The notes under the pieces are model-generated. The model was given only the letters and a program-made list of their open reading frames with translations, ran no database searches and was not told the origin of the DNA. Source: Lachnospiraceae bacterium (GTDB lineage Bacteria > Bacillota > Clostridia > Lachnospirales > Lachnospiraceae). From it: a stretch of DNA of 64,000 nucleotides. The position numbers and the translations under genes are program-made. Of this stretch, positions 1 through 29,471 are shown one piece after another. Position 1 is the stretch's first letter, and each line of letters opens with the position of its first letter. The DNA is taken from contig JAFTWC010000018.1 in assembly GCA_017465475.1 (NCBI GenBank), positions 1 through 64,000 of the forward strand, read 5' to 3'.

Positions 1-1830
<1,830 letters not shown>

Positions 1831-1832
1831 CT

Positions 1833-1861
1833 AGAATACCACGAAAATCGGTATGTGTAAA
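1833..1861 (-). promoter_or_regulatory. Candidate sigma-A promoter of the PFOR gene
   Basis: On the minus strand TTTACA (1861-1856) and TATTCT (1838-1833) are separated by 17 bases. Position and spacing fit a sigma-A promoter for the gene starting at 1719. Confidence 0.5.
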
Positions 1862-2002
1862 GAGTTTCTTGCTTAAAAACGAGGAAATTTTTGTCACTTT
1901 TTCATAAAAAAAATCAGAAATCGGATGAAAATCATGTTAGTGTTGACGGAGAAAGCAGCATGGGGAAAAACGAATGGGATACCGAAAGAGAATAGAGGGT
2001 AC

Positions 2003-2030
2003 TTGAAAGAAAACCGGAATGTGATATACT
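2003..2030 (+). promoter_or_regulatory. Candidate sigma-A promoter of the EamA gene
   Basis: TTGAAA (2003-2008) and TATACT (2025-2030) with a 16-base spacer, about 35 bases before the EamA start codon. Confidence 0.55.
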
Positions 2031-2064
2031 ATCCGCAAAAGAAAAATGAAACGAGGAATTGAAA

Positions 2065-2934: not shown

Positions 2935-3013
2935 ACAGCGCATTCTTACTGCGTTTTGCTTAAGCCTCACGGTGTAATAAAGCGGAAAGGGATGAGCAAC
3001 ACCCAGAAAGACA

Positions 3014-3042
3014 TTGACAAATATCGGAAGATACGCTATAAT
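3014..3042 (+). promoter_or_regulatory. Consensus sigma-A promoter of greA
   Basis: TTGACA (3014-3019), a 17-base spacer and TATAAT (3037-3042): a perfect match to both sigma-A hexamers, about 45 bases upstream of the greA start. Confidence 0.85.
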
Positions 3043-3086
3043 CTTATGAATACTGGAGAAGTATGGATAAAGGAGGATTTTGCACT

Positions 3087-3572
3087 ATGGCGGCAGAAAA
3101 GAAAAACATACTGACTTATGAAGGTTTGAAGAAGCTGGAAGATGAGCTTGAGGATTTAAAGGTAGTTCGTCGTAAAGAGGTTGCGGATAAGATTAAGGAA
3201 GCAAGAGAGCAGGGAGATTTGTCCGAGAATGCAGAGTATGACGCAGCAAAGGACGAGCAGCGTGAAATCGAGGCACGTATCGAAGAGCTTGAGAAGATTT
3301 TAAAGAACGCAGAAGTAGTAGATGAAGATGAAGTGGATGTGGATACCATCAATATCGGCTGTAAGGTAAAGGTATTGGATATGGAGTATGATGAGGAATT
3401 AGAGCTTCGTATCGTTGGTTCTACCGAAGCAAGCAGTCTTCAGGGCAAGATTTCCAATGAGTCTCCGGTAGGCAAGGCGTTACTTCGCCATAAGGTAGGC
3501 GATGTGGTTGAGGTGGAGACCCAGGCCGGCACCGTGGAATACAAGATTTTAGAGATTCAGAAGTCAAACTAG
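3087..3572 (+). CDS. greA: Transcription elongation factor GreA
   Basis: GreA binds the secondary channel of RNA polymerase and stimulates cleavage of backtracked RNA, rescuing stalled elongation. The 161-residue product shows the N-terminal antiparallel coiled coil with the tip sequence [12 protein letters not shown], which carries the acidic residues that reach the polymerase active site, then the C-terminal FKBP-like domain ending in [13 protein letters not shown]. Length is normal for the family (about 158). ATG at 3087 is chosen because AGGAGG (3071-3076) lies 10 bases upstream; the in-frame upstream ATG at 3063 has no ribosome-binding site. It lies 95 bases before lysS and may be co-transcribed with it, an arrangement common in Clostridia. 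Confidence 0.97.
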
Positions 3573-3584
3573 TGTAGAGAAAAC

Positions 3585-3629
3585 ATCCGGTTAGTGATTT
3601 GATGAATTTATTCAAACTGCTTGCCGGAT
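3585..3629 (+). terminator. Weak hairpin between greA and lysS
   Basis: ATCCGG (3585-3590) pairs with CCGGAT (3624-3629), followed by TTGTTT. The loop is long and the stem short, so this may be a leaky attenuator rather than a true terminator. Confidence 0.3.
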
Positions 3630-7382: not shown

Positions 7383-8190
7383 AAAAGAATGCAAATCGAT
7401 TATGGTAAAGTCAAAATTGCCGGATGCGGATTATGTGATTAATCCATATGTAGGATGTTGCCATCAGTGTATCTATTGCTACGCCCAGTTCATGTCCAGA
7501 TTTACGGGACATGCAGGAGAGCAATGGGGAAGCTATATGGATATAAAGAGAGGAGGAGAATTGATAAAAAAAGACTTATCGGGCAAAACGGTTTTATTGG
7601 GGTCAGTAACGGATCCGTATAATCCGCTTGAAAAAAAGTATGGTGCGACCCGGCAAATTCTGCAAAAGCTGCTTAGGGAAAACACAAATGCAAACATTGA
7701 GATTTTAACAAAATCGCCGCTGGTAGTAAGGGATATTGATTTGTTGAGACAGTTTGACAATATCCGAATCGGAATATCGTTATCCACGATGGATGCTGTT
7801 TTTGCAAAAAGAATAGAAAAAAATGTTGTTTCTCCGCAGGAACGAGTGGATGCGATGAAAGAGTTACATAGAAACGGTATCCGGGTATATGCCTTTGTTT
7901 CTCCGATTTTTCCTTTGACGGATGGTTGGAAACAGGTGGTCGATCAGGTCCGGGAGTATGCCGATTTAATATGTTTTGAAAATTTGAATTTGCGGGCTAA
8001 TTACAAATATGAAGTTCTCGAAATGATTCGTGAGTTCTATCCGGATAAGTACGATGCGTATGTGAGTCTTTATTCGAATCCGGGAACGCTTCGTGCATAC
8101 TGGGAAAGTCTGGCTACGGAAATCGGAAATTATTTAGGCGAAACGGCGCATAAACTTTATTTCTTCCATGATGAAATAAAAAAGAAGTAA
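7369..8190 (+). CDS. SPL-like radical SAM protein (resembles the radical SAM mobile-pair B group)
   Basis: A 273-residue radical SAM protein with C30-x3-C34-x2-C37 (CCHQCIYC) in the context NPYVGCCHQCIYCYAQ, followed by GSVTDPYNPLE, LTKSPLVVRDIDLL and FENLNLR. These strings match the spore-photoproduct-lyase-like branch, in particular, from memory, the proteins called radical SAM mobile pair protein B. SplB itself repairs a thymine dimer; the function of this branch is not established. There is no SPASM domain. The start at ATG 7369 has AAGGAG upstream and overlaps the preceding gene by 14 bases. Pairing with a second radical SAM gene (5435-6352) fits the idea of a two-enzyme system. Confidence 0.8.
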   Translation: MRISEKECKSIMVKSKLPDADYVINPYVGCCHQCIYCYAQFMSRFTGHAGEQWGSYMDIKRGGELIKKDLSGKTVLLGSVTDPYNPLEKKYGATRQILQKLLRENTNANIEILTKSPLVVRDIDLLRQFDNIRIGISLSTMDAVFAKRIEKNVVSPQERVDAMKELHRNGIRVYAFVSPIFPLTDGWKQVVDQVREYADLICFENLNLRANYKYEVLEMIREFYPDKYDAYVSLYSNPGTLRAYWESLATEIGNYLGETAHKLYFFHDEIKKK

Positions 8191-8222
8191 GGAATGATTA
8201 TTGCGCTTAGAAAGGAGTTAGT

Positions 8223-9257
8223 ATGAAGTTCTTAGGCTATGAAGTGAATGGTTATGTTGTTGCTGCATCGTGTCCTGCAACGGAGTGTATTGAGAATGTG
8301 GTGAAATGTGCGGAGAACGGTGCACAGGCGGTTATTCTTAAATCTGCTTCAAGTTCCAGGACGAATGACGGAAAGAAAAGAAGATGTTATATAGATTATG
8401 AGAAAAAGCAGTTTTGGTCTGAATCCGGGTTTGACAGAGAAATGTTATTGATTGATGAAGCGGTAGAATTAACGAAATCAGCTAAATTACGTACAGGCAT
8501 CTTGATTATTCCGAGTGTTTGCGAACTGACATATGATACCAAACAATGGGTCGAAACATGCAAAAGATTAGAGAATGCAGGTGCGGACGCGCTTCAGTTG
8601 GACTTCTTTTATTTTAACGATATGTTATGTGAAGACGGTCTTAAGGAAAAGATGATTACTCTGTTGAAAGCAGTTATGAATGAGCTGTCAATCCCGATTA
8701 TGCCCAAAGTAAATCATAACCTGCCGGCATCCTATATTGCTAAGATTTTCAGGGAGGCCGGGGTGAAATATGTGTCATTGTTAGATTCCGTGAGATCTGT
8801 TTTGCCTAATAACCCGATATTTGAGGGAAAGAGTTTGTCTGTATTTGGAGAGTGGATGTTCCCTTTGACAAAGCAATATACTAAGATTCTGGTAGATTCG
8901 GGCTTTGAGGTATGCGCCGGTGGCGGCGTTACAAACGGAAGCATGGCAGCGGAATTGGTTGAGCTGGGGGCTTCAACCGTTCAGATAGCAATGGAAATCC
9001 TTCTGAATGGCTATGCCAGATTTTCTGAGATTGAAAAGGAATGTAAGCAATGTATGCAAAAAATGGATAGACACCGGAACTCCCACTTTATCGAAAACCG
9101 AAAAGCATCAGTTAATCTTTCAAAGTGTACCGGATGCGGAAGATGCAAAGTGCAGTGCTTTTGTAATGTGGCAAAAGACTTAGTAAATGATAATACGCAA
9201 TGCGAAGGATGCGGATTATGCGCTGATATTTGCAAATCAGGTGCGATAACAATTTGA
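8223..9257 (+). CDS. Dihydroorotate dehydrogenase-like flavoprotein with C-terminal 2x[4Fe-4S] ferredoxin domain
   Basis: A 344-residue protein. Residues 1-265 form a TIM barrel of the DHODH/PreA type, with a lysine in IMPKVNHN (K162) and an FMN-phosphate-binding end CAGGGVTNGS (231-240) followed by GASTVQIAMEILLNG. Residues 299-344 are a bacterial-type ferredoxin with two Cys motifs, CTGCGRCKVQC and CEGCGLCADIC. The usual catalytic ELNxSCP region is replaced by LQLDFFYFND, so orotate synthesis is unlikely. The architecture resembles the PreA subunit of dihydropyrimidine dehydrogenase. As last gene of the unit it may pass electrons to the two radical SAM enzymes or reduce their product; this is inferred only from context. 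Confidence 0.82.
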   Translation: MKFLGYEVNGYVVAASCPATECIENVVKCAENGAQAVILKSASSSRTNDGKKRRCYIDYEKKQFWSESGFDREMLLIDEAVELTKSAKLRTGILIIPSVCELTYDTKQWVETCKRLENAGADALQLDFFYFNDMLCEDGLKEKMITLLKAVMNELSIPIMPKVNHNLPASYIAKIFREAGVKYVSLLDSVRSVLPNNPIFEGKSLSVFGEWMFPLTKQYTKILVDSGFEVCAGGGVTNGSMAAELVELGASTVQIAMEILLNGYARFSEIEKECKQCMQKMDRHRNSHFIENRKASVNLSKCTGCGRCKVQCFCNVAKDLVNDNTQCEGCGLCADICKSGAITI

Positions 9258-9304
9258 CTTGATGGCTGAATTGTGCCACCTAAAAGGATAGTAGTTACAG
9301 ACGA

Positions 9305-9332
9305 GAAAACAGAGAGCTTTATCAGCTCTCTG
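9305..9332 (-). terminator. Terminator of the minus-strand HTH-like gene
   Basis: CAGAGAGCT (9310-9318) and AGCTCTCTG (9324-9332) form a perfect 9-bp stem with a 5-base loop. On the minus strand it is followed by TTTTCTC. The hairpin overlaps the last codons of the gene that ends at 9322. Confidence 0.6.
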
Positions 9333-10617
9333 TTCTCTCGTTAAGTAATATCATTGACATGCATTCACGGAAGTACCAAAGCGGATCATCTGCCTGGGCG
9401 GAACACATGATAATCCAATCAAAAGGATTTCCTGCATAAAGCTCTTCGTATCCGCATTCTTGTAACGTAGCATTCATTTCATCGAAAAATACGTCGCTTA
9501 ATGGGATTTCGTCGTCAAAATCCGCGTCTGTTGCGATTTTTATTTCGCACCAGAAACGGTAAAATTCTAATAGAAGGATGGTTTTTCTAATAGAATCATA
9601 GGATTTGCTTTGTGTAACTTTTGATTCCGATAATACATCGGACAGGGTTTTCCTTGAAGGGAAATTGGCTTTGACAACATCCGGTATGGACATTTTGTCA
9701 ATGAAACGTTCTTTGTCGGTCTCGATTATTTGTTTCAATCCAAGGATTGTCTCCAGAAGAAAATTTTTGGACCGTATATTCTTTTTTTCAATCATTTCAA
9801 GAAACGTTTCATTCGGGAATTCGAATGCGATTTCCTTCATAATCAGTCCCCATTCTTTTTGATTCTTTTGTTCGGGGAGAATTCCGTGGGTTGTGTTTTT
9901 CAGTTTAATCTTTCGTTTGATTTTTTCAATTTCATTTTTTGCGTTCTCCGAAGGGAGTAGTTCATTTACTAAATTATCAAGCAGGGCATAGGCGGTTTCG
10001 TTCCAGGTTGAGAAATTCTCCTTGTTCAGTACTAAAAAGGAAATGAGTTCCTCTTTTGACTTAATATCTTCCACCCGTTGTTTCACAAATAAGGTATAGT
10101 TTGGATACTTTTTGGCGGATGAAGATGTGGCGGGTGCCTGTTCTACTTCGTCGATTATGGTAAGCGCATCTTTGTAAGACATACCGTTTTTGAAGCAGAA
10201 ATAGAATACGGACTCGTCAATGGTATGACAATTGAATGCTCTGTCATAATAAACGTGATTGAAAAACCATATGGTTTCCTCAAAGCTGAGATTTAAAGCG
10301 AAGCATATTTCGTAAATCTGTTTTCTGTATCCTGCTTCAATTTTCGGACGATGTTCACCGGTAAACCAGGAAATAACAGTGGTAAGAGAAATAGGTGAGC
10401 CTATTTCCTGCAGCTTTTTTGATAATACCCGAGCCATTTCATTTGGGGAGGTGTCGGTACAAGCATATTCTTTTTTTATCATTATTTCGGAAAGACCCTG
10501 ATGAAAGGCACGGAAATTATCCGGATCTCGTAAGAAGTCCATTGCCTTGTCCGCACCATCCTCGTCCATAAAGCTGTAAATACTGTCCGAATTATATTGT
10601 GTATAGTTTTTATTCAT
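9322..10617 (-). CDS. Unrecognised 431-residue protein with HTH-like N-terminal region, divergent to the kinase gene
   Basis: Not assignable to a named family. The N-terminal 150 residues include a helix-turn-helix-like stretch (LSKKLQEIG then SLTTVISWFTGEHRP) resembling an XRE-type domain, and YKDALTIIDE helices; the remainder is mostly helical and charged without membrane segments. ATG 10617 has GGAGG 8 bases upstream; the in-frame TTG at 10623 would sit too close to it. It is transcribed away from the kinase gene and shares a 258-base intergenic region containing a long dyad. Location and fold suggest a regulator of the island or an accessory factor of the kinase/chaperone cassette; this is inference. 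Confidence 0.7.
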   Translation of the reverse strand: MNKNYTQYNSDSIYSFMDEDGADKAMDFLRDPDNFRAFHQGLSEIMIKKEYACTDTSPNEMARVLSKKLQEIGSPISLTTVISWFTGEHRPKIEAGYRKQIYEICFALNLSFEETIWFFNHVYYDRAFNCHTIDESVFYFCFKNGMSYKDALTIIDEVEQAPATSSSAKKYPNYTLFVKQRVEDIKSKEELISFLVLNKENFSTWNETAYALLDNLVNELLPSENAKNEIEKIKRKIKLKNTTHGILPEQKNQKEWGLIMKEIAFEFPNETFLEMIEKKNIRSKNFLLETILGLKQIIETDKERFIDKMSIPDVVKANFPSRKTLSDVLSESKVTQSKSYDSIRKTILLLEFYRFWCEIKIATDADFDDEIPLSDVFFDEMNATLQECGYEELYAGNPFDWIIMCSAQADDPLWYFRECMSMILLNERTES

Positions 10618-10640
10618 TGCCAACGCCTCCGTTTACACAA

Positions 10641-10701
10641 AAATCTCATAAAAATATTATATATGCAAATTGTCGAAAAATCTATATATTTTGTGAGATT
10701 T
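10641..10701. promoter_or_regulatory. Long AT-rich dyad between the divergent HTH-like and kinase genes
   Basis: AAATCTCA (10641-10648) is matched by TGAGATTT (10694-10701), and after one mismatch AAAA by TTTT, giving near-perfect arms around a 36-base centre. A TATAAT-like hexamer for the minus gene lies inside the dyad. It is a plausible operator, perhaps for the adjacent HTH-like protein. The rest of the 258-base spacer holds the kinase promoter. Confidence 0.45.
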
Positions 10702-10751
10702 GTAGTAAAATGGAAACAAAGCAAGGTGTTTGCGTCATCTGCAAATCAGTA

Positions 10752-10782
10752 TTACAAACTCTGTCATATCATTCTGTATACT
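10752..10782 (+). promoter_or_regulatory. Shared island promoter, copy 2 (kinase gene)
   Basis: TTACAAAC (10752-10759), 17 bases, then TATACT (10777-10782). Element sequence and spacing are the same as at 5279-5309 and 15236-15266. Leader about 87 bases. Confidence 0.6.
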
Positions 10783-10875
10783 GAAGTCATCAAACGGAGA
10801 TGAGGTATATGGAATGAATGAAAATGTGTGTCAAAGAAACAGTCGGATGGTGTTTACAGAAAAGAGGAAGGATAG

Positions 10876-13800
10876 ATGATTGACAGCAGAATAGCGTTGC
10901 CGAGAGGCTTTAAGTTGAAAATAGGAGAGAAAGAATATTGTATTACGTCAGAGGTGGGGAGAGGTGCCAACAGTATCGTTTACAATGCGGAATATGTGGA
11001 TTCATCGGGAATTGAGCATCTGGCCAGAGTGAAGGAGCTATATCCGGTCTATATAACGATATACAGGAGCTCTTGTTATGAAATAAGCTGCGATGAAAGA
11101 CAGTCGGATAAATATGAGGCTGCTAAAAAGCGGTTTCAATCTTCCTATAGAGCAAATGCAGAGTTCAGAAGAATGTACGGAATGGTGAATTCTACCGTTA
11201 ATGTTGTAGATATGGCGGAGCTTAACGGTACCATATATTCCGTTATGAATCTGGATGAGGGGGAAGATTATCTTAGTTATAAGGATGAAAGTCTGATTGA
11301 AACGTTTACCCATGTGAAGACCCTGGCTACCGTAATTGACAAATATCATGAAGAGGGATTTTTACATTTGGATATAAAGCCGGAAAACGTATTTGTTATA
11401 CCGGAAACGGCGGAGCATATTCTTTTGTTTGATTTCGATTCCGTTTGCAGAATCAGCGATTTGCAAGAGAAAAGGATTATGGATTTATCCTTTTCGGAGG
11501 GATTTTCAGCTCCCGAGCAGGTGCAGGGCAAAATTTCAAAAGTCGGACCGCAAACGGACATCTATGCCCTCGGAGCATTATTATTTTATAAGATATTTGA
11601 CAGAAAGCCGACGCTTGCAGACAGCCGTTATTTATCCTGTTTTGATTATAAGGACATGAGGTTTTATGATGAAAGATTGCGACCTGCCTTTTTTACGAAA
11701 CTTAAAGAGTTTTTTCATAAAACGATGGTTGTTTCGACATTGTTACGGTGGAAATCGGTGAAGGAAGTTATCGTAGCATTGGAGGAGTTAATCAAACTTG
11801 CTGATTTGGAAGCCACTTATTTAATTGATACCTTTACCTACAATTCTGCGTACTTTGTCGGGAGAGAAGAGGAACTCGAAGAAATACATGAAGAGTTAAA
11901 GGACAATAGCGTCTTGTTTCTTTCCGGAATCGGAGGAATAGGAAAAACAGAGTTGGCAAAGAGGTTTGTAGCCCGATATCGTGATGAGTTTGATACGGTA
12001 GCGTTTGCATATTTTCAGAATTCCATTGAGTATACGACGTGTCACGAAATCCTGATAAATAATATGTCAATGGAGGAAGAAGAAAGTGAACAGGAGTATT
12101 TTGAACGGGTTTTGGAAGTTTTGAGAAAAAGCACCTCTAAGCGAGATTTGATTTTATTGGATAACTTTGATGTGGAGCGGGATGACCGCTTGGAAGAGTT
12201 GCTTCAGTGTCCGTGCAAATTCCTGATTACGACCAGAAACAGAAATATAAGGGACTGGAACTTCAACGAAGTCAAAGTGGACCGTATGACGGATGATAAG
12301 GATTTGATGGCCCTTTTTACTTCTTACAATGAGGAAGAGTATGAAGCTGCGGAATACGAGGCGGTAAGGGAACTGATTGCTTTTGTTGATGGTCATACGA
12401 TGACGGTAGAGCTGATTGCAAAGTATTTGCGTGATTCCGAACAGAGCCCGACGGAGTTGTATCGGAACTTCATGGAAAAAAGCGGCGTTACAAACACGGA
12501 TGACGAACGTATCGTTAATCAGCGAAAAGATCGCAGGATGAATTCGGAAAGTGTAAACCGGCATTTATCAATCCTATTTGATGTGTTCAATTTTGATGAA
12601 GCATCGAAAGAAATTATCAGCAGCTTATCCTTGTTTGCAGGAATAAGAATCCGAAGAATGCTTTTTGAAGAATTATGCGGAATGAACGGAGTGAGCAACT
12701 ATATCGATATGCTGATGAAACGGGGATGGATTGAAAGTACCGGGGAGAATCAGAAAATCTTTTTGCACCAGGTAATTCAGGATTTGGTATATACGAAACT
12801 GAATCCTACAACAGAGAGTTGTCCTCATATCGCTTCCGGAATATACCAATATAGAAGGGAACCTGTTGACGATTATTCTGTGCGACGGATAAAAAGACGG
12901 GTATTTGATGTGATTGCTGACCGGATTGGCGGAGAAGACCTTATGTATGCCAAAATCTGCCTGGAATATGGGAAAAGGGACGCCATTGAGGAAGCAATTG
13001 TGATTTGCAAGAGGATAGGCACGGAAGAGGCATACCGCATTTTGGCGAATCTATATATGGAACAAATAAGAGACATATGCCGATGCGATGACATGTTTGA
13101 TGCGTTTGCAACGGAAGACGTATTAGAGGAATACGCTCAAAGACAAATTGTTTCCGTAGGCAACTTGTTTGACTTGGCAATAGAAGCTTGTGAAAAAGCC
13201 AACAGTAACCGCCAGATACAGACGGCTGAATTGGTAAGACTGGCAAAAAGAATGGATAGCCACATGAGTGATTTGCTGATGAATGGGTTTTTTGACGAGG
13301 TTCCGGAAGCAGAGTCCATTTATCAAAGAATTATTGGTATATTTGAGAACGTGAATGCTGATTTTGTCGGATATTCTATTTCAGATGAGTTAAAAGAAGA
13401 GGTTCTTGAAAATGTGAGGGACTTCTTTTCGGATGACTATTCCATATTCAGATGGGGAGATTACTCTGATCCTGCTAAGGTGTCTTTTTATCAGGAGTTG
13501 CTGGATGAGGTAAGAAACGGAAAAAATGCTGACGGAACTAGCGAAAGTACGGACATTGTATTTCATTCCGGTGATTATTCCTATAGTGACATAGGGGATG
13601 CTTATATGGCAAACGAGGATTATGAGAATGCCATTCAAATGTATCAGAAGGCCTATGAGGAGGATAGCGAACCGATAGATTGGATATTATCCAGGTTATC
13701 CAAGGCACACCTGAAAATGGGCAATTCTGATTCTGCGACAGAGTGTTTGGTTAAGGCTCTGGATTATGATAAGCGATGTATTGCAAACGGGGAAGAATTC

Positions 13801-15147
13801 GGACACTATTCGGGGTATATCTGTTTGGATCTTATAAAAATTCTTATTGATGCAAACAGAAGAAAAGAGGCGGAACGATATGCCGGAGAATTGATAACCT
13901 ATATAGAACCGGAGATACAAAAGGATGACGCCGATTTGCAGTATATCCGTTATGTGTTGGCGGCTAAGTGGTATTTGTACCGCTTGGCGGAGTGCGCAGA
14001 CGATAAAAAGAACTACTGGTGTGAATGCGTAAAGCTATATAATCGCCTGGGAAACACGGAGTTGGGCGAATGTGTTCTGGGATTTCTCGAAGATTATTTT
14101 GAGTATGAGAACGTGGAGTTTAAGGAAATACCGGCCGTAATCAAGCGTGTTAATCCCGGATTCGGAAAGGAAGAACAAAAGGTCCGGTTGATGGAAGGGA
14201 TTATTGATAAGTACTGTGATACGAAAGAGTTCGAACTGTGTCATATTTATTTACTTATCATCTGCGCTGAAATAACAAGTGATATTTTATACAAGGGGCA
14301 GAAGCGGCCACTGGAGTATTGTCTAAAAGCCGAGGAACTGCTTTCACGGTATTCGGGAGAAACCCGGTTTCCGGAGGAAAGAGAATATCTCAGAAATAAA
14401 ATAATTCAGATGAAAGCAGAAGTTATGTCAAATGCTACTCCATTTGATTTTGATGAAATAAATGCTGTTCGTAAACAATGTAATTATTATCTTGTGGCAG
14501 AGCAGGAAGCTCAAACTTTGAATACAGAGAAGCAGATTGACCTTTGGAAAGAAGCAGCAGACGGTTACGGCTATATAGGCGATTATGTGAATGAGATTCG
14601 GTGTTTGGAACAGGCTCAGATGCTGATGCTTCCTGTTTTAAATTTGTATGATTACAGTCGTTTTGATTACAATTTATGGAACGTAATGTGGCTTCAGGAG
14701 AGGGCGTGGTGTAATCTTTTACAGTATGAAAAGGCGAAAGACGTTATAAAAGAGCTGTATTTGAAAACGCTTGAAAACTATAAAGAGAAGAGGAAGGAAA
14801 GTGAGTACTTAAACTATTTAAAAAATATAGCAGAGCTTTACGAAGAGACAAAAGATGCGGGGAGGACTTTTCGAGGATTCTTGATATGGCTATACAGTTT
14901 GCTTTCGGATAAATGTGACGAACGTATTCTGTTACGTTTTTTCGACAGCGTAAGTGATATAGAAAATGTTGTTCAAGAATTGACTGCGATTGTATCGGGT
15001 ACGACGGTAAAGGAAATCGATGAAATGACGGAATTTATAGAAGCGATAGAACGATTGGATTTGACCGAGCAGGAGAGACAGTTAATTCAGCCGTTATTAG
15101 ATGTGATAGTTGCGGAATACCAAAATAAGGATGTGGAGTTTAAGTAA
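10876..15147 (+). CDS. Giant Ser/Thr protein kinase - STAND (NB-ARC-like) ATPase - TPR protein
   Basis: A 1423-residue cytoplasmic multidomain protein. Residues about 20-305 form a Hanks-type kinase: Gly-rich loop GRGANSIVY (28-36), Lys in RVKEL (K53), catalytic loop HLDIKPEN (164-171, HLD instead of HRD), DFD (186-188, for DFG), APE (212-214) and DIYALGALLF. Residues 327-560 form a STAND NTPase: FVGREEEL, P-loop GIGGIGKT (351-358), Walker B DLILLDNFD and the ITTR sensor (451-454). The C-terminal half is helical, with TPR-type repeats clearest around 905-975 (YMANEDYENAIQMYQKAYEE). STAND proteins with repeat tails are typically ligand-triggered switches in signalling or immunity. It is the first gene of the cassette, with its own promoter and strong terminator. 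The ligand and phosphorylation targets are unknown. Confidence 0.88.
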   Translation: MIDSRIALPRGFKLKIGEKEYCITSEVGRGANSIVYNAEYVDSSGIEHLARVKELYPVYITIYRSSCYEISCDERQSDKYEAAKKRFQSSYRANAEFRRMYGMVNSTVNVVDMAELNGTIYSVMNLDEGEDYLSYKDESLIETFTHVKTLATVIDKYHEEGFLHLDIKPENVFVIPETAEHILLFDFDSVCRISDLQEKRIMDLSFSEGFSAPEQVQGKISKVGPQTDIYALGALLFYKIFDRKPTLADSRYLSCFDYKDMRFYDERLRPAFFTKLKEFFHKTMVVSTLLRWKSVKEVIVALEELIKLADLEATYLIDTFTYNSAYFVGREEELEEIHEELKDNSVLFLSGIGGIGKTELAKRFVARYRDEFDTVAFAYFQNSIEYTTCHEILINNMSMEEEESEQEYFERVLEVLRKSTSKRDLILLDNFDVERDDRLEELLQCPCKFLITTRNRNIRDWNFNEVKVDRMTDDKDLMALFTSYNEEEYEAAEYEAVRELIAFVDGHTMTVELIAKYLRDSEQSPTELYRNFMEKSGVTNTDDERIVNQRKDRRMNSESVNRHLSILFDVFNFDEASKEIISSLSLFAGIRIRRMLFEELCGMNGVSNYIDMLMKRGWIESTGENQKIFLHQVIQDLVYTKLNPTTESCPHIASGIYQYRREPVDDYSVRRIKRRVFDVIADRIGGEDLMYAKICLEYGKRDAIEEAIVICKRIGTEEAYRILANLYMEQIRDICRCDDMFDAFATEDVLEEYAQRQIVSVGNLFDLAIEACEKANSNRQIQTAELVRLAKRMDSHMSDLLMNGFFDEVPEAESIYQRIIGIFENVNADFVGYSISDELKEEVLENVRDFFSDDYSIFRWGDYSDPAKVSFYQELLDEVRNGKNADGTSESTDIVFHSGDYSYSDIGDAYMANEDYENAIQMYQKAYEEDSEPIDWILSRLSKAHLKMGNSDSATECLVKALDYDKRCIANGEEFGHYSGYICLDLIKILIDANRRKEAERYAGELITYIEPEIQKDDADLQYIRYVLAAKWYLYRLAECADDKKNYWCECVKLYNRLGNTELGECVLGFLEDYFEYENVEFKEIPAVIKRVNPGFGKEEQKVRLMEGIIDKYCDTKEFELCHIYLLIICAEITSDILYKGQKRPLEYCLKAEELLSRYSGETRFPEEREYLRNKIIQMKAEVMSNATPFDFDEINAVRKQCNYYLVAEQEAQTLNTEKQIDLWKEAADGYGYIGDYVNEIRCLEQAQMLMLPVLNLYDYSRFDYNLWNVMWLQERAWCNLLQYEKAKDVIKELYLKTLENYKEKRKESEYLNYLKNIAELYEETKDAGRTFRGFLIWLYSLLSDKCDERILLRFFDSVSDIENVVQELTAIVSGTTVKEIDEMTEFIEAIERLDLTEQERQLIQPLLDVIVAEYQNKDVEFK

Positions 15148-15168
15148 AAACCGTAATAGAAGTATGTG

Positions 15169-15217
15169 AAAAAGACAGGTAGGAACACCTAGGTTAGGTG
15201 TCCCGCCTGTCTTTTTT
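15169..15217 (+). terminator. Strong terminator after the kinase gene
   Basis: AAAGACAGG (from 15171) pairs with CCTGTCTTT, extended inside by GGAACACCTA/TAGGTGTCCC, and the stem runs into a T tract ending at 15217. It separates the kinase transcript from the MBL operon. Confidence 0.88.
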
Positions 15218-15235
15218 CACTATTACAAATCATTC

Positions 15236-15266
15236 TTACAAACAGTGACATACGGGATGATATCCT
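15236..15266 (+). promoter_or_regulatory. Shared island promoter, copy 3 (MBL-GrpE-Hsp70 operon)
   Basis: TTACAAAC (15236-15243), 17 bases, then TATCCT (15261-15266). A second near-copy TTACAAAT sits 13 bases upstream (15223-15230). The leader is short (about 25 bases) before the AAAGGAGG ribosome-binding site of the first gene. Confidence 0.6.
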
Positions 15267-15297
15267 TAATGTAAAGAAAAGGAAAGGAGGACAACAG

Positions 15298-16446
15298 ATG
15301 AGCGTCAGAGGAAAAATACCGTTTATTCCTTTGGGCGGCGGTCAAAGAGTTGGCGCCAGCTGCTATTATTTGCAGTTGGCCGGCGCCAACATAATACTTG
15401 ACGCGGGAACCGGATTGAAGGAAGGGATTGAGTACGGGCCTGATCTTTACGGGTTAGCTACTTCACCGTTTATTGAATCCTTGGGGCAGATAGACCAGAT
15501 TTATATTTCACATGCCCATGCCGATCATGTTGCATATCTGATGGACCTTGCAGCAATGGCACCCAGAGCGAGTATCTATATGACGGAACCTACAAAAGTG
15601 CTTGCGGAATTTCAATTGTATGACCGTTTGCTTAACAGCGGGAAACTAAAGGAGGAAAGAGCGCAATTGGCGGTAAAAAGTTTAATGGACCGCATTGTAG
15701 TGGTTTCGTATCTGCAGAGTCTTGACTTTGGGAAATATAAGGTAACATTTTATCCGGCCGGACATATTCCCGGAGCGATGATGGTGCACTTTGAGGGAGC
15801 GGGGACATCGATTTTATATACCGGTGACTTTTCTCTTGAAGGAACAAGCTTAACACCGGGGTGTGTACTGCCGAATGCGAGTCCGGAGATTTTGATTATG
15901 TGTGGATTGCATGCGAAGCATCCGGATTTTCATAAGTCAAAAATGAACCTGCAAGACAAAGCAGATGCATTGCTGGAGTATGCGTATAAGACCCGTACGA
16001 ACGTAAAATGCTGTGTCCAACAGTTAAGCAAGTCGGTTGAAGTATTAAAAGCACTAAATGATGCAAACAAGTATGAAATACCGATAGTTTTGGATGATTC
16101 GGTAATGAACCCGGTACGAAAAATGGAACAATTACGAATTCCTATTTTGACCAAACACAATAAACTTCTGAGCAATAATGTGGAACGGCCTCATATTTAT
16201 CTTTCGGCGGTCCGCAAGGGAACGGGGAGTGGGTATAAGGAGGTGAAGATGGATTTTTCCCTACATGAGGACTACGACGATATGAAGGCATTCATAAAGA
16301 AGTTGAATCCGAAAACAGTAGCAATGGTACATTGCGGAGCTCCGTATAAGGATACGGACAATACGATTGAACAGGAACTGATTAACGACGGTGAATGCAG
16401 AGCACAGTTTATATTTGCCGAAGAAAGTGAAATTAATTTTTTATAG
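15298..16446 (+). CDS. Metallo-beta-lactamase-fold hydrolase, RNase J/CPSF-like (beta-CASP-type)
   Basis: A 382-residue protein with the zinc-binding motif H72-A-H74-A-D76-H77, the further ligands H156 (AGHIPG) and D177 (YTGDFS), and a late His in MVHCG (H345). The segment after the GD motif (QQLSKSVEVLKALND followed by IPIVLDD) resembles a beta-CASP domain, so the protein is probably a nucleic-acid hydrolase of the RNase J/CPSF73 class, though smaller than RNase J. Another MBL hydrolase activity cannot be excluded. ATG 15298 follows GGAGG by 8 bases. It is the first gene of an operon with a GrpE-like protein (11 bases on) and an Hsp70. Confidence 0.8.
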   Translation: MSVRGKIPFIPLGGGQRVGASCYYLQLAGANIILDAGTGLKEGIEYGPDLYGLATSPFIESLGQIDQIYISHAHADHVAYLMDLAAMAPRASIYMTEPTKVLAEFQLYDRLLNSGKLKEERAQLAVKSLMDRIVVVSYLQSLDFGKYKVTFYPAGHIPGAMMVHFEGAGTSILYTGDFSLEGTSLTPGCVLPNASPEILIMCGLHAKHPDFHKSKMNLQDKADALLEYAYKTRTNVKCCVQQLSKSVEVLKALNDANKYEIPIVLDDSVMNPVRKMEQLRIPILTKHNKLLSNNVERPHIYLSAVRKGTGSGYKEVKMDFSLHEDYDDMKAFIKKLNPKTVAMVHCGAPYKDTDNTIEQELINDGECRAQFIFAEESEINFL

Positions 16447-16457
16447 GAGATGAGAAA

Positions 16458-17552
16458 ATGAATAACAAAATCAATCCGAAGATGAAGGAAGTTATTGACG
16501 GGATGCACAAAGAAATGCTGCGTAAGATAACGAAGGCCGGGCGCCTTAATGAAAACATTGTGAAGGAGAATCGTATCTTTACAATCCTTTGCAGAGATGC
16601 CGGAGCAGAGCCTCGATGTATTGCAGAAATTATGAATTCTGCTTATGGAGAGGATATGTCAGGCGAAGATGTGATTCAGGTACTACGAGACAGAAGAATG
16701 ACACGACAGTCCGAGAGACGAGAAGTGTTCATCTGGGCAGAAAAGGTAAGCAAGGCTTTTGACGGTGCAATGAATGGTGATAAGGCTTCTTACGAACAGT
16801 TTGAGAAATTAAGAAAGAGCGCGGCACTTAGCAGCGGGAAGAAATATGATACACAGGACAGAATCGCGCTCCTTATGATGTTTGAGAATAGTCCGTATCT
16901 TGATTTTGATGAAGCAATGCAGCAGTTACACCAGCTGGGAAACACCTATGCCCACTATTATCTTATTGATGTATCGGATATTCTTGCAGATGTATATGGC
17001 TACAGAACAGAGGAAAGCGATAAGAAAAATTCGGGTAAGTCAATGTCGGAGCATAACGAATTGACATATGAGCAGGCGATAAGACGACTTCGGAGAGTGG
17101 AAAATTCCTTAGAAAGAACGAATCTGATGCTTCAGGATTTGCAGGATGAGTTCGAAGAGCAGCTTGAGGCCGGTAAGGTGAAAGAGCTTACGGATTTTTT
17201 TGCAAAACTGAATTCAGAGAAGTACGGTTGCATTTTAGATGAGTTGCTTGTAATCAGAAAAGGCGTTGAGGATCTTAGAAAGAACAATTATGAGTTGCCG
17301 CTTGAGATTAACGGATTGCTGATTATGGTCAGAAAACTTATCCAGTTTGTTAGAGATAACCATATTGAGCCAATGATGAAACCTGGCGCTGTTTATGAGA
17401 TGACAGCATCTGAGGTGGAGAACTGTGATTATGAAGGAACACCGTTTGTGGGGCTTGACGAAAAGAAAAAAGTGCAGGTGGTTTCTCCGGGGTGGATTTA
17501 CAAAGAAAAAGAGATACAGATTTCAAGACCTAAACTGAAAGAGGAGGAATAA
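16458..17552 (+). CDS. GrpE-like nucleotide-exchange factor with a large extra N-terminal region
   Basis: A 364-residue cytoplasmic protein. Residues about 200-255 form a charged coiled coil (RRLRRVENSLERTNLMLQDL), and the last 90 residues look like GrpE: helix LIMVRKLIQFVRDN, then the beta-wing-like PMMKPGAVYEMTASEVE, GTPFVGLDEKKKVQVVSPGW and a final IQISRPKL strand. GrpE releases ADP from DnaK; here the partner would be the Hsp70 encoded 3 bases downstream. Canonical GrpE is about 190 residues; the N-terminal 200 residues here are unrecognised and could bind a cassette-specific partner. Function is inferred from fold resemblance plus adjacency. Confidence 0.65.
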   Translation: MNNKINPKMKEVIDGMHKEMLRKITKAGRLNENIVKENRIFTILCRDAGAEPRCIAEIMNSAYGEDMSGEDVIQVLRDRRMTRQSERREVFIWAEKVSKAFDGAMNGDKASYEQFEKLRKSAALSSGKKYDTQDRIALLMMFENSPYLDFDEAMQQLHQLGNTYAHYYLIDVSDILADVYGYRTEESDKKNSGKSMSEHNELTYEQAIRRLRRVENSLERTNLMLQDLQDEFEEQLEAGKVKELTDFFAKLNSEKYGCILDELLVIRKGVEDLRKNNYELPLEINGLLIMVRKLIQFVRDNHIEPMMKPGAVYEMTASEVENCDYEGTPFVGLDEKKKVQVVSPGWIYKEKEIQISRPKLKEEE

Positions 17553-17555
17553 AAA

Positions 17556-20387
17556 ATGAAACAGACAAATAATAGTGAACACAATGACCTTTGCGTAGGT
17601 ATCGATCTTGGTACAACAAATTCAGCAATTGCAATTATCAACGAAAAGCCGAACGGTGAAATTGTGAGCAAGGTGCTGGAGATTAAAAGAACAACGGATA
17701 TTTATGATAATACCAACAGCGGTATCAGTCTTTCAACTGTTAAGAGATCAACCTTGCCGTCGTGTGTGTATTACAGACAGGACAAAAATTATGAGCCGGT
17801 TGTAGGTGATTTTGCGAAGCTGCAGTATTCCTTAAGACCGCATCTTGTGGCTAAGTCCATAAAAAGTCAGATGGGAAATGCACACGTAGAAGGCTTAGAC
17901 GAGGCAATCCCGGATGAAACCCCGTCTCAGGTATCTGCAAGAATTCTTACTCATTTAAAGAAAGAGGCAGAGGGAACGGTAAGATGCAATATTGATGATG
18001 CGGTGATAACCGTACCGGCGAATTTTGATCCTGCTATGTGTAAGGCAACCAGAGATGCGGCAGAAATGGCCGGAATCAAGGTTCGAAATGAGGATGGTTC
18101 CGAGAGAGCCGTACTCCTTTCTGAACCAAATGCAGTCATTTATGATCTTATCAATCAGATTAGAAACGGTGAGATCCCGAATTGTATTCTCGATTTAAGT
18201 ACCAAGAAAACAGTTCTTGTATTTGATATGGGAGGCGGCACGTTAGATATTACGGCTCATGAGATTATGAGACGTGAGGATAATCCGGAGATTCTTAAGG
18301 TAGATGAAATCGCTACCAACAGATATACATTACTGGGCGGAGATGATTTTGATGATGCCATTGCCAGAACCATGTATGAAAGATATCTAAAGTTATATTC
18401 GGGTCATCCGAATGTAGTAAGTGTTCTGAAAAAGAATGAAAAGATTATTATGCCGTTACTGAAATCACATGCCGAAAATCTTAAGCTGGAACTTAATGAG
18501 AGATGCGGAGACAGCTATGACTCCGGTTGGGATGATCCGGCAGATGAAATTACATTTGATGTGGGTGGTCGTTTGCATGGTATCGGTTATGCATACGATG
18601 ATAAATTCACGAAGGATGAGGTGGAAGAGATTCTTGCTCATTTTATGGCAAAGAATTTGACATTTAATGATTATAAGAATCTTGATGCAATTTCAGACAC
18701 AAGAAATATTATCTATCCTATTCTTGACGTTCTTAACAAAGCTGCAGTTAAGCTTGGCGTAGATAATATTAAAGTGGATGCCGTTGTGGTTAACGGCGGT
18801 ATGTCTAAGTTCTATATGGTTACAGACCGATTGACGGAGTTTTTTGGTTTTGAGCCGATTGTTGCGCTTGACCCTGATTTGGCAGTGGCCAGAGGTGCAG
18901 CAGTATATCATTACTACCTTCATAAGTATGAGGAGATGCAGGATGATATGCGTTTGTTAGGAACAAGTGAGATGAGTGAACCGCTTACATTAAGTAACGG
19001 CAGAACCGGTAAAAGTACGACGGATGGTTCAAACATAACGAAAGAGAAGCCTTTTGCGCCAATCCAGTGGGGAAAGACGATCCTTAATGACAGTCTTTAC
19101 CTTGGAGTTAAGAATGGTGGAGTTCAGATGATTATACCGACCGGTGCAGAGCTTCCGTATGTTTCTGAAGTGATGCATGGCTTTCGAATTGAACCGGGTC
19201 AGTCCATTGTTTCTGTCCCTATTAAAAGCAGAAACATTGATGGCACATATAGAAGTATTGCTTCCGGTAACATTTCGTTTAAGAAACATTATCCGAATGG
19301 AGCTTATGTGGCATTTTTAGTAGAGATGGGCAAAAACAAAGTCATCACGATGAAAGCCTGGACCAGCGATGATGAGAGCGGAAGCAGTCAATTAGAGGTC
19401 GGGCAGGTTGACATCGTTATTGATAATAAAGACATTCAGAAAAGCAAGTTCAGAATAACGCCGCCGTCGGGAAGCACCTTAAATCCAAAGGCAGAGATTA
19501 GTACTCTTATTCAACTTTGTACCAATTATGACCATTGCAGACGACCGGAGGAACGAGGAAAACTGGCCAAGAAGATCTCTGAGCGTTCATCGGTAATTTG
19601 TAACGCAAGTAACAAAAACGAATTTGCAGATACGATCCTTAAGGCTTTGGACACATCTTATTCCCAAGAAGCACGTACTCGTCTCTTTGTAATAGCGAGA
19701 AGAATAGGAGCCGGTTGGAGTAAGTGGCAGAAGAAAAAACTTTATGATATTGTTATGAGTCAATTGCTTCCGGTGCTGAACGGTTTTGGCTCTTACGGGA
19801 CAAAAGTTACAACAAATGCACAAGCAATTCAATGTCTGGGTATTTGCGGCGAAGAAATGAAGATTGAAAAAATATTGCCGTTATACGAGTATACGGCGTA
19901 TATTCAGCCTTGCTTGTATGCGCAGGCTAAGGCAGGCTGCGGAATAGAAGTCCTTCTGAAACGATTTCAACAGGATGCAACGTGGGCACTTGAAAGAAGA
20001 AGCAGATTTTTACAGTTTAGTGCTTGGGCAATGGGTGTAATCTTACATAATAATCCTCAGCAATTTGCTGTGATAGGAGAAAAGGAAGCGAGTATGGTGG
20101 TTGATAAGCTCTGCGAACTCATTAAATCAGGTCTTCTGAATGCAGCTGAACTTACATCCTGCATTATTGCCCTTGGTTGTATATGCGATTCCAGACAGGG
20201 AGAAGCCTTTGTCAATCAGAAGGATAGACTGGCTGCAATAGAGGCAATCGGAAGTGCAGAAGGCTTTAATTCATATGAAATTATGGCTCTGCAGACTAAG
20301 CCGTGTGCCTTGGCTGATAAAATGATAAGCGGAACGGTTCTCGATGAAGAAGAGGAGGCGTATTTGCTTACAAAGCTTGATATGTAA
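17556..20387 (+). CDS. Hsp70-family chaperone with C-terminal helical repeat domain
   Basis: A 943-residue protein. Residues 1-460 are an Hsp70/actin-type ATPase: phosphate-1 VGIDLGTTNSA (14-24), VITVPANF (150-157), phosphate-2 FDMGGGTLDI (223-232), GGDDFD (261-266) and adenosine motif VVNGGMSKFY (411-420) with DLAVARGAAVY. Residues about 490-640 look beta-rich like a substrate-binding domain (KTILNDSLYLGVKNGGV). From about 650 to the end is an alpha-helical, HEAT-like region instead of the usual lid, and there is no EEVD-like tail. It is clearly distinct from housekeeping DnaK (about 610 residues). It is the last gene of the operon, 3 bases after the GrpE-like gene and followed by a terminator, and probably couples ATP hydrolysis to remodelling of an unknown client. 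Confidence 0.88.
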   Translation: MKQTNNSEHNDLCVGIDLGTTNSAIAIINEKPNGEIVSKVLEIKRTTDIYDNTNSGISLSTVKRSTLPSCVYYRQDKNYEPVVGDFAKLQYSLRPHLVAKSIKSQMGNAHVEGLDEAIPDETPSQVSARILTHLKKEAEGTVRCNIDDAVITVPANFDPAMCKATRDAAEMAGIKVRNEDGSERAVLLSEPNAVIYDLINQIRNGEIPNCILDLSTKKTVLVFDMGGGTLDITAHEIMRREDNPEILKVDEIATNRYTLLGGDDFDDAIARTMYERYLKLYSGHPNVVSVLKKNEKIIMPLLKSHAENLKLELNERCGDSYDSGWDDPADEITFDVGGRLHGIGYAYDDKFTKDEVEEILAHFMAKNLTFNDYKNLDAISDTRNIIYPILDVLNKAAVKLGVDNIKVDAVVVNGGMSKFYMVTDRLTEFFGFEPIVALDPDLAVARGAAVYHYYLHKYEEMQDDMRLLGTSEMSEPLTLSNGRTGKSTTDGSNITKEKPFAPIQWGKTILNDSLYLGVKNGGVQMIIPTGAELPYVSEVMHGFRIEPGQSIVSVPIKSRNIDGTYRSIASGNISFKKHYPNGAYVAFLVEMGKNKVITMKAWTSDDESGSSQLEVGQVDIVIDNKDIQKSKFRITPPSGSTLNPKAEISTLIQLCTNYDHCRRPEERGKLAKKISERSSVICNASNKNEFADTILKALDTSYSQEARTRLFVIARRIGAGWSKWQKKKLYDIVMSQLLPVLNGFGSYGTKVTTNAQAIQCLGICGEEMKIEKILPLYEYTAYIQPCLYAQAKAGCGIEVLLKRFQQDATWALERRSRFLQFSAWAMGVILHNNPQQFAVIGEKEASMVVDKLCELIKSGLLNAAELTSCIIALGCICDSRQGEAFVNQKDRLAAIEAIGSAEGFNSYEIMALQTKPCALADKMISGTVLDEEEEAYLLTKLDM

Positions 20388-20396
20388 TACAAATAT

Positions 20397-20426
20397 AAGA
20401 AAACAGTCCTACGGGGCTGTTTTCTT
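20397..20426 (+). terminator. Terminator after the Hsp70 gene
   Basis: AAGAAAACAG (20397-20406) and CTGTTTTCTT (20417-20426) are perfect complements with a 10-base loop; the 3' arm supplies the T-rich tail. Confidence 0.75.
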
Positions 20427-20504
20427 GTGGACATAAAAGTTGCAATTTTTCGCGGTTCGCGCAATAAAATGCATAAAATATGCAATAAAACATGTACGAA
20501 AATA

Positions 20505-20513
20505 TGGTATACT
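20505..20513 (+). promoter_or_regulatory. Candidate extended -10 promoter of the xylanase gene
   Basis: TGG followed by TATACT (20508-20513) is an extended -10 element 40 bases before the start codon. Upstream, GCAATAAAA occurs twice (near 20461 and 20482) with an intervening GCATAAAA, direct repeats that might bind a regulator. Confidence 0.4.
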
Positions 20514-20552
20514 ATATAAAGAAATTTGACAAACAGAAAGCGAGGAGATTTC

Positions 20553-22556
20553 ATGAAGTTACGAAAGAAAGCGTTACTTATGATGGCGTTAACCGTACTG
20601 TGTTTCTGTGCTTTTGCGGCTTGCTCCGGTGAAGAGCAGAGTGATACGAATGTTACATCGACTCCGGAGGTAACGGAAGCCCCGGCTGGCGATGAGAGTG
20701 TCGAAATCACGACTCCGACAGAGGAACCTGCTGCAACCGATGCTCCGGCCCCGACGGAGGTACCTGCGGCAACAGCGACCCCGGCTCCGACAGAGGCCCC
20801 GGAAGCAACCGAAGCCCCGACTCCGACAAAAGCCCCGGAAGCAACCGAAGTCCCGGCTCCGACAGAAACACCGGTAGCAACCGAAGCCCCGGCCCCGACG
20901 GAGGCACCGAAGCCGACAGCGACTCCGGTTCCGACGAAAGCCCCGGAACCGACCAAAGCACCGGCAGTGTCCGGTCCGACGGATTTGACCTATGATTTTA
21001 ATGAGTTGTTGTACCAGACTTCTTACGGTACCCAGTACACCATTGAGACGGACGGTTCAATTTCCCTGCAGTACGAAGGGTTATATCAGGAGATAAAGCT
21101 GAGCCTTCCGAAGTTGATTGATATGAGTCATTGTCTTGGTGTTACCGTGAAGATGAAGAGTGAAGCGGGAAATCTTGCAGTAAAACTTTACGATAAGGAC
21201 TTCAATGAAGTATTTGTTCGCTATGACGGACAGACAACGGGAGTGGCAGATCATCTGCTGGCACCGGCATTGACCACGGAGGTGGCAGGAATCGGTCTGA
21301 TGGCATGTACGGAGATGGAGGATTATTCCAACTTTGTTGCTACGGTATATTCCGTAACCTTCCATATGGATGCAACATATGGCGGAGCAGGGACGGAAGA
21401 ACCGGTGGAGGTTAGTAAAACCGGAGCGCTTGTAAACGCAGCAGAAAAGCACAACTTCAGCTTCGGCATTGTAATGAACAGCAGAGATTTAACGAATGAT
21501 AAGTACAAGACTTTGTTGGGAGAGGAATGTACCAGCGTAAGCTTCGGTAACGAAATGAAGGCATATTCCTTGTTGAATCAGACTGCTTCGAAGAGAAGTA
21601 AAGACGGTATGCCGGTGATGAATTACAATACCGCAGATCGTATGGTGCAGCTTGCGGTTCAGCAAGGTGTGAAGATACGTGGTCATGTTCTTGTGTGGGA
21701 CGCCCATATGAGCGATTGGTTTTTCAGAGAAGGCTATGACAGCAAAGGTGCTTATGTGGACCGTGAGACCATGTTAAAACGTCTGGAGTATTATATTGAC
21801 CAGGTGATTACGCATTTTGAAGAGAAGTATCCGGGCACGGTTTATTGTTGGGATGTAGTAAACGAAGCAGTAGGTGACGGTACCGGTGAGTATGTTTATG
21901 CCGATAAACGTCATGTGCGTACAAAGCGTAACGGGGAAGATAATCCGTTCTATACCATAATCGGAGATGATTACGTGGAGCTTTCTTTCCTCTATGCAAA
22001 GAACACGGTAGAAAAGCTTCAGGCAAAGAATCCGGATGTGGAAATTGCATTATTTTACAATGATTACAGTACATTCTACGATAAAAAGCGTGATGCGATT
22101 TGTGAATTGGTAACGAGTATCAACTCCTATGCAAAGGATGCAAGCGGCAATTATCGGAAGCTTTGTGACGGTATCGGTATGCAGAGCTATGTGGGGGGAT
22201 ACGGAACGCAGAACGGTTGTATGAATGATTCTGATATTACGAGAATTAAGACTGCAGTGAAGAAGTTCCATTCCCTTGGCGTGGATGTGCATGTGACAGA
22301 GCTTGCGGTGCGTAATTACGACCCGGCTAAGGCGGATCGGCACGCGGAATTTTACGGGGATTTGTTCCGGGCGTATGCGGAATTGAACGCAGAGGAGCTT
22401 ATGATCTCCAATATTACCGTTTGGGGTTATAACGACAGACCGTCGTTGCCGAAAACAGACTACGGATATAAGCAGAACGGACCGTATTGCGGTTTGTTTG
22501 ATGAGAATTATGAAAAGAAATCTTCTTATCATGCGGTGGTAGAAGCACTGAAGTAG
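20553..22556 (+). CDS. Endo-1,4-beta-xylanase, GH10, lipoprotein with Pro/Thr linker
   Basis: Cleaves beta-1,4-xylan outside the cell. The 667-residue protein starts with a lipoprotein-like signal (CFCAFAAC, Cys24), then an Ala/Pro/Thr/Glu linker of tandem TEAPxPTxAP-type units (about 40-145), a beta-rich carbohydrate-binding-like region (about 150-285) and a GH10 domain (about 300-667). Catalytic residues are E438 in WDVVNEA (acid/base) and E583 in VTELAV (nucleophile); GHVLVWDAHMSDWFF is the family's substrate-cleft motif. ATG 20553 follows GAGGAG closely; an upstream in-frame start at 20526 lacks a site. It is a stand-alone gene with its own terminator. The repetitive linker DNA (20660-20960) could vary in length between strains. 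Confidence 0.95.
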   Translation: MKLRKKALLMMALTVLCFCAFAACSGEEQSDTNVTSTPEVTEAPAGDESVEITTPTEEPAATDAPAPTEVPAATATPAPTEAPEATEAPTPTKAPEATEVPAPTETPVATEAPAPTEAPKPTATPVPTKAPEPTKAPAVSGPTDLTYDFNELLYQTSYGTQYTIETDGSISLQYEGLYQEIKLSLPKLIDMSHCLGVTVKMKSEAGNLAVKLYDKDFNEVFVRYDGQTTGVADHLLAPALTTEVAGIGLMACTEMEDYSNFVATVYSVTFHMDATYGGAGTEEPVEVSKTGALVNAAEKHNFSFGIVMNSRDLTNDKYKTLLGEECTSVSFGNEMKAYSLLNQTASKRSKDGMPVMNYNTADRMVQLAVQQGVKIRGHVLVWDAHMSDWFFREGYDSKGAYVDRETMLKRLEYYIDQVITHFEEKYPGTVYCWDVVNEAVGDGTGEYVYADKRHVRTKRNGEDNPFYTIIGDDYVELSFLYAKNTVEKLQAKNPDVEIALFYNDYSTFYDKKRDAICELVTSINSYAKDASGNYRKLCDGIGMQSYVGGYGTQNGCMNDSDITRIKTAVKKFHSLGVDVHVTELAVRNYDPAKADRHAEFYGDLFRAYAELNAEELMISNITVWGYNDRPSLPKTDYGYKQNGPYCGLFDENYEKKSSYHAVVEALK

Positions 22557-24573: not shown

Positions 24574-24602
24574 TTGAAAGTGTATTGGTACTCTGCTATA
24601 AT
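24574..24602 (+). promoter_or_regulatory. Sigma-A promoter of the HTH-GlmM operon
   Basis: TTGAAA (24574-24579), 17 bases, TATAAT (24597-24602). Confidence 0.75.
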
Positions 24603-24643
24603 TGTATCATAATATAGTAGTATGTGAAAAAAGGAGAACGCGT

Positions 24644-29422: not shown

Positions 29423-29471
29423 TACAGTAGGTTTTTTCTATTTGAAAAGAGACATATTGAGGTGTGTACCT

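Follow-up and report, generated by a model that had tools for sequence, protein, structure and literature searches.

A conserved MBL-GrpE-Hsp70 operon beside a kinase-STAND module in a Lachnospiraceae bacterium

Four adjacent plus-strand genes of a Lachnospiraceae bacterium (contig JAFTWC010000018.1) raise the question of whether a kinase-STAND protein, an MBL-fold protein, a GrpE-like protein and an Hsp70 belong to one system, and what such a set of proteins might do. The stretch of DNA analysed here, referred to as the window, comprises 64,000 nt (positions 1 to 64,000 of the contig). The four ORFs of the initial annotation agree with our coordinates and with the plus strand, and its domain calls agree with the Pfam matches (kinase, NB-ARC and TPR; MBL with RMMBL; Hsp70). 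A minus-strand gene at 9322-10623 and a hairpin between the kinase and MBL genes are additional to its list. The features of the locus are the following:

9322..10623, minus strand: conserved divergent partner of the kinase (label UPHTH), 433 aa
10876..15147, plus strand: Ser/Thr kinase-STAND NTPase-TPR protein (Pfam), 1423 aa; separate module
about 15161..15224, plus strand: predicted intrinsic terminator in the kinase-triad gap, folding energy -33.3 kcal/mol with z -7.34 relative to shuffled sequences
15298..16446, plus strand: MBL-fold protein of the CPSF73/INTS11/aCPSF1 type with a shortened beta-CASP domain, 382 aa; triad gene 1
16458..17552, plus strand: GrpE-like protein with an N-terminal domain modelled as nine helices, 364 aa; triad gene 2
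17556..20387, plus strand: Hsp70 with conserved ATPase residues and a C-terminus modelled as HEAT/ARM-like helices, 943 aa; triad gene 3

The locus is two modules side by side: module A (9322-15147) holds the kinase-STAND gene and its partner, and module B (15298-20387) is the triad operon. A single four-gene cassette, as first proposed, is not supported, given the rarity of the kinase at triad loci together with the terminator-like hairpin. Far from being a regular member, the kinase-STAND gene was found at 2 of the 40 triad loci with at least 4.5 kb of upstream sequence (the window and locus L089), and no triad protein was found in any of the 20 fetched stretches around kinase partners, so that the suggested search for all four genes being kept together gave a negative answer.

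The association of the MBL gene with a GrpE-Hsp70 pair of its own, also suggested by the initial annotation, is a real conserved unit that recurs in related contigs in constant order. Profile scanning of genome contigs (named collection) with the GrpE-like family recovered 63 loci, which by taxon name comprise 30 from Lachnospiraceae and other Eubacteriales-type bacteria, 29 from Selenomonadales or Quinella, two from Synergistaceae and one each from Phascolarctobacterium and Riflebacteria; going by organism names, the triad is present in many rumen and gut bacteria. The same profile matched 10 of 397 family genomes, one of them (G008) through a housekeeping grpE that was dropped from the triad set, leaving the own genome and eight others. 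All eight carry MBL, GrpE-like and Hsp70 genes in the same order, fused MBL-GrpE in one. Six of these eight loci duplicate contigs of the scan and were counted once, and with the two further ones the total is 65 distinct contigs besides that of the window, which hold the GrpE-like gene in 65, the Hsp70 gene in 64 and the MBL gene in 58 cases (the one and seven misses sit at contig ends); these loci were collected via the GrpE-like gene, stand-alone MBL or Hsp70 relatives lying outside the sample. Order and strand are constant in 50/50 loci with all three genes in the ORF set (the window counted, the fused L126 omitted), with median gaps of 17.5 nt (MBL-GrpE) and 9 nt (GrpE-Hsp70); a single MBL-GrpE gap measures 892 nt and the remaining gaps are at most 290 nt.

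In Hominifimenecus microfluidus strain CLA-AA-H215 (L126/L014) the MBL and GrpE-like proteins form a single 794-aa chain, from which it follows that they probably work together; the fusion argues for contact between the MBL protein and the exchange factor. Pairwise distances of the three proteins are correlated, partly because of shared ancestry, both over the 24 near loci (r 0.67 for MBL-GrpE, 0.75 for MBL-Hsp70 and 0.92 for GrpE-Hsp70) and over all 31 loci (r 0.96-0.98). Elsewhere the own genome has a GrpE gene beside another Hsp70, plus an RNase J, and therefore the triad is an extra set. The single-sequence MBL scan of genome contigs gave no relatives. The class-level profile search matched 2 of 291 genomes, namely the own genome and one match (E-value = 2.4e-4) with two stops that was taken as spurious, and the phylum-level search matched 1 of 299, the own genome. 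No GrpE-like relatives were found in phages, plasmids or viral contigs, the viral contigs being scanned both with the single sequence and with the profile.

Concerning module A, Pfam detects Pkinase (2.2e-14), NB-ARC (4.6e-11) and TPR in the 1423-aa protein. The nucleotide loop, the catalytic HxD and the P-loop are kept in 4/4 sequences, and the DFG motif reads DFD in 4/4. Matches to part of the protein turn up in 170 of 200 family genomes, and almost all are to the kinase or the STAND part alone. Near full-length homologues occur in 2 of the 199 other family genomes; both carry a divergent homologue of gene 9322-10623, and the triad profile misses both. PADLOC reported 31 families for the kinase, and the 25 matches listed are all kinase models (e.g., PD-T4-6, MkoA, mad6), the match covering the kinase part of the protein. 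The partner gene could not be assigned to any Pfam, NCBIfam or PADLOC family at the thresholds applied, and part of its protein appears HTH-like by eye. A profile of its family, which has relatives in L187-L206, matches 40 of 397 family genomes and found no relative in the viral contigs. Counted by hand, a kinase of this kind adjoins a gene of this family in 15 of 20 fetched loci (one convergent), lies within 5 kb in two and is missing from three; four of the 20 had been chosen knowing that a kinase match was near, and among the other 16 there are 11 adjacent cases.

The second joint locus, L089, belongs to an uncultured Lachnospiraceae MAG and has the same five-gene layout with different genes downstream. 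Identity between the window and L089 is 54% for the partner and 45% for the kinase by BLAST, and 37% and 34%, respectively, over whole alignments. In L089 the kinase stop is directly followed by a terminator-like hairpin, rich in GC and with a U run; the folded stretch has z -2.98. Since such a hairpin follows the kinase in both joint loci, the kinase module and the triad are probably transcribed separately, and the link between them is occasional. A first tree split the two triads, as if the kinase had arrived beside a triad on two separate occasions; this idea is not supportable, as a tree constrained to make them sisters was not rejected and even had the higher likelihood (p-AU 0.718). The arrangement of the window and L089 may therefore go back to one event. 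Downstream of its five genes (12450-18378) L089 encodes 369- and 925-aa proteins with no Pfam match, the latter with a relative in L079, a 461-aa protein with weak coiled-coil-type matches and, by eye, a radical-SAM activase-like gene.

The MBL protein matches Lactamase_B (1e-10) and, just over the cut-off, RMMBL (1.4e-4; 22.2 bits vs. 21.6). Its closest solved relatives in a profile search of the PDB are INTS11 (5.9e-49), CPSF73 (6.6e-48), archaeal CPSF (1.4e-37) and Cas14 (1.5e-35). The best NCBIfam match is aCPSF1, with 104.9 bits against a cut-off of 580.2, and type VII Cas14 reaches 66.8 against 800; PADLOC gave one weak row (0.0077). In an alignment of 33 sequences (the window's copy plus 32 of the other 58 MBL proteins found) D35, H72, H74, D76, H77, H156, D177, H323 and H345 are identical in 33/33; among these are the metal ligands (HxHxDH, H, D) and the beta-CASP histidines of motifs B and C. 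The motif-A acid (the INTS11 E203 site) is absent in 33/33: 29 sequences have Cys and 4 have Asn at this place. The aligned PDB chain has Gln at this site, and we take it to be the INTS11 E203Q construct. INTS11 E203Q is called enzymatically dead in one paper (PMC8565846), and E203Q is termed a catalytic mutation in another (PMC7980224). The beta-CASP domain is short, with 18 profile positions standing against 82 INTS11 residues between two matched stretches. Given the missing acid and the shortened domain, the MBL protein may be a weak or altered nuclease, or none at all. Both points weaken the earlier proposal of an ordinary nuclease effector.

The 364-aa protein of the window has no Pfam GrpE match, and its kinship, which the initial annotation had put forward, rests on the family profile, on the fused homologue L126, which lies over the Pfam GrpE cut-off (26.6 vs. 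25.8 bits), and on the layout of a predicted model. The family profile matches a 216-aa grpE frame in another genome (E-value = 1.9e-4) beside DnaK- and DnaJ-like genes, which apart from the Hsp70 match were named by eye. The model (mean pLDDT 86.6) is GrpE-like in layout, with a long helix at 204-251, two more helices and a beta domain at 303-362, and residues 7-180 are modelled as nine helices with no clear match. Foldseek gave no significant match for the model among the best 50 of 259; at the top of these 50 stand two GrpE chains with a probability of 0.63 (E-value = 0.72). Two matches in a PDB profile search with the GrpE-like profile were judged to be chance, and PADLOC returned one weak row (0.006).

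The 943-aa protein matches Pfam HSP70 (1.5e-39) and scores 136.9 bits with the DnaK equivalog model, against a cut-off of 648. In 62/62 sequences, 17 of the 23 ATPase-region positions inspected are identical, including the IDLGTTN and DxGGGT motifs. PDB profile matches listed at a cut-off of 1e-5 begin in the ATPase domain and mostly span it; at 1e-40 the same profile found nothing in the PDB. A beta-type substrate-binding domain is presumably kept between the ATPase and the C-terminus, judging from the alignment by comparison with DnaK. Residues 628-943 are modelled as 15 helices (mean pLDDT 91.7), and this C-terminus models as a HEAT/ARM-like arm. Its Foldseek matches are HEAT/ARM proteins such as importin-alpha (0.003); the fifth-ranked match (E-value = 0.013) is to chain D of the Integrator cleavage module, which we take to be IntS4, with importins ranking higher. 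HEAT/ARM matches are generic and none was found at 0.001, so the likeness to Integrator is a lead only. PADLOC gave no row for the Hsp70, and in the operon we noticed no gene for a J-domain partner.

When ORFs of selected triad loci were read by eye, most neighbours looked unrelated or housekeeping, and neighbour clusters common to several loci were few; the largest are tatC-like (17 loci) and TauE-like (15 loci), mainly in Selenomonads, one member of each having been checked. PADLOC was applied to 132 ORFs (120 to <1400 aa, a range that leaves out both STAND kinases), namely the two closest on each flank of 43 selected triad loci, of which 41 contributed ORFs. At 1e-15 they matched 35 families; the 25 listed include cas6 models in two ORFs, mad2 in four and mad3 in three, and type II methyltransferase, restriction-enzyme, DpdF, RecD and PDC models in one ORF each. 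A control of 140 ORFs from 20 stretches matched 47 families, the 25 listed each in 4 ORFs and nearly all kinase models; several control stretches lie on contigs known from kinase matches, and the control is consequently not clean. Three loci stand near type III CRISPR, cas6 or CARF genes: in L087 (1-8793) cas6, a CARF gene and type III-D CRISPR effector genes lie upstream of the triad, and a DUF697 gene separates them from the MBL gene; in L069 cas6 adjoins the MBL gene; and L113 has CARF and CARF-HEPN genes at least 2.5 kb downstream. A defence role is not established by these three loci.

Some further observations were made along the way. In L064 the triad is flanked on either side by an Hsp70 gene, one (446-2773) with an internal PIN_4 domain and the other (8753-10237) encoding a 495-aa Hsp70 in which most of the peptide-binding part seems to be missing. 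The window also encodes a GH10 protein with a repetitive Pro/Thr/Ala/Glu stretch (20526-22553), of which the antisense ORF 20216-20956 is probably a shadow, an HTH_3 domain fused to a complete phosphoglucomutase/phosphomannomutase (24602-26263) and a CHASE2 sensor fused to an adenylate/guanylate cyclase (29442-31280). Runs of N occur near the triad in L071 (about 7715-8644) and near the kinase partner in L187 (about 1361-3607).

Our preferred reading, in which we place about even confidence, is that module B is one machine in which a private chaperone cycle loads or gates a metallohydrolase acting on RNA or RNP, with module A separate and occasionally adjacent. For such a machine, complex formation, substrate and catalysis are what we infer. 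The GrpE-like protein would dock the MBL protein through its helical N-terminal domain, and the Hsp70, with its HEAT/ARM-like arm in place of the DnaK lid, would bind the RNP or the MBL protein itself. The ATP cycle, its pace set by the dedicated exchange factor, would then load, open or release the MBL protein on its RNA or RNP substrate, and the machine might serve in quality control or RNA processing, separately from the regular DnaK-GrpE pair and RNase J of the cell. Where the kinase-STAND module is adjacent, it may switch the triad or report on it.

Other explanations differ mostly in what they ask of the MBL protein and of the kinase. The triad might be a chaperone stress operon whose MBL protein acts on a small molecule or lipid and not on nucleic acid; many MBL proteins are non-nucleases and the active site is modified, but with INTS11 and CPSF73 as closest solved relatives and RMMBL just over its cut-off we consider this highly improbable. 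It is possible, yet on balance unlikely, that the MBL protein is a pseudo-nuclease, that is, a metal-binding scaffold or RNA binder serving as client adaptor for the private Hsp70. The Cys or Asn at the motif-A site, the shortened beta-CASP domain and the description of INTS11 E203Q as enzymatically dead (PMC8565846) speak for it; an inactive protein, however, would not need the metal ligands and both beta-CASP histidines that all 33 sequences keep. All five genes could also be one immune system, in which the STAND kinase senses infection and triggers an MBL protein held or released by the chaperones. The repetition of the five-gene layout in L089 with other genes downstream and the surroundings of L087, L069 and L113 are in line with this, and the STAND-like bNACHT25 is reported to need DnaJ for phage sensing, a precedent for chaperone coupling (PMC12169576). 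Yet the kinase is rare at triad loci and predicted terminators divide the units, credible defence genes are few among the scanned neighbours (in a comparison whose control was not clean), no GrpE-like relative was found in phages, plasmids or viral contigs, and the window and L089 may owe their common layout to one event. Taken together, these points make a five-gene immune system a doubtful reading.

Hsp70s usually serve many clients. An operon in which an Hsp70 and an exchange factor are coupled to a single metallohydrolase offers a tractable example of a dedicated chaperone machine, and the MBL branch concerned is that of the eukaryotic 3'-end processing nucleases. These MBL proteins naturally lack the motif-A acid yet keep every metal ligand, which opens the role of that residue to a direct test.

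Compared with known systems, the triad shares a GrpE-like layout and an Hsp70 ATPase with housekeeping grpE-dnaK-dnaJ, and it differs from it in the extra N-terminal domain, the HEAT/ARM-like C-terminus and the MBL partner, with no DnaJ noticed. Integrator (INTS4-INTS9-INTS11) and CPSF73-symplekin likewise pair a helical protein of HEAT type with an MBL/beta-CASP protein from the same branch (PMC7980224). Unlike them, the triad is bacterial and without a second MBL subunit, its HEAT-like part is fused to Hsp70, and its MBL protein lacks the motif-A acid and has a shortened beta-CASP domain. The triad might even be a convergent bacterial counterpart of the Integrator/CPSF cleavage core, in which an INTS11-like MBL protein would be held by the HEAT-type arm of an ATP-driven Hsp70, the private chaperone cycle gating RNA cleavage or RNP remodelling, with a kinase-STAND switch in front in some lineages; we put this forward as a speculative and rather improbable extension. 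Archaeal aCPSF1/FttA and type VII Cas14 are further MBL/beta-CASP relatives, the triad MBL protein being much shorter and far under their cut-offs. The kinase has a STAND-type NTPase in common with bNACHT25 and other STAND immune proteins (PMC12169576), and is unlike bNACHT25 in its kinase N-terminus, NB-ARC-type match, TPR tail and partner gene.

No description of the MBL-GrpE-Hsp70 set was found among the matches listed in searches of open PMC papers (subscription papers lay outside the scope), in agreement with the initial annotation. The GAP1-N2 GTPase-centred conflict systems include HSP70 and GrpE (Kaur et al., 2020; PMC7159879), and the term "MBL" occurs 0 times in the main text of that paper. 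Unlike these systems, GAP1-M (PF20014) was detected in 0 of 9 triad genomes searched, seven of which are at least 90% complete (a control search was positive in 1 of 14 genomes), and we noticed no GTPase with the triad. Like the triad, they contain an HSP70-GrpE pair in Firmicutes, and a subset has a second HSP70 without the peptide-binding domain, to be compared with L064 (PMC7159879). Among known systems, the HSP70-GrpE theme of the GAP1-N2 systems comes closest to the triad in composition.
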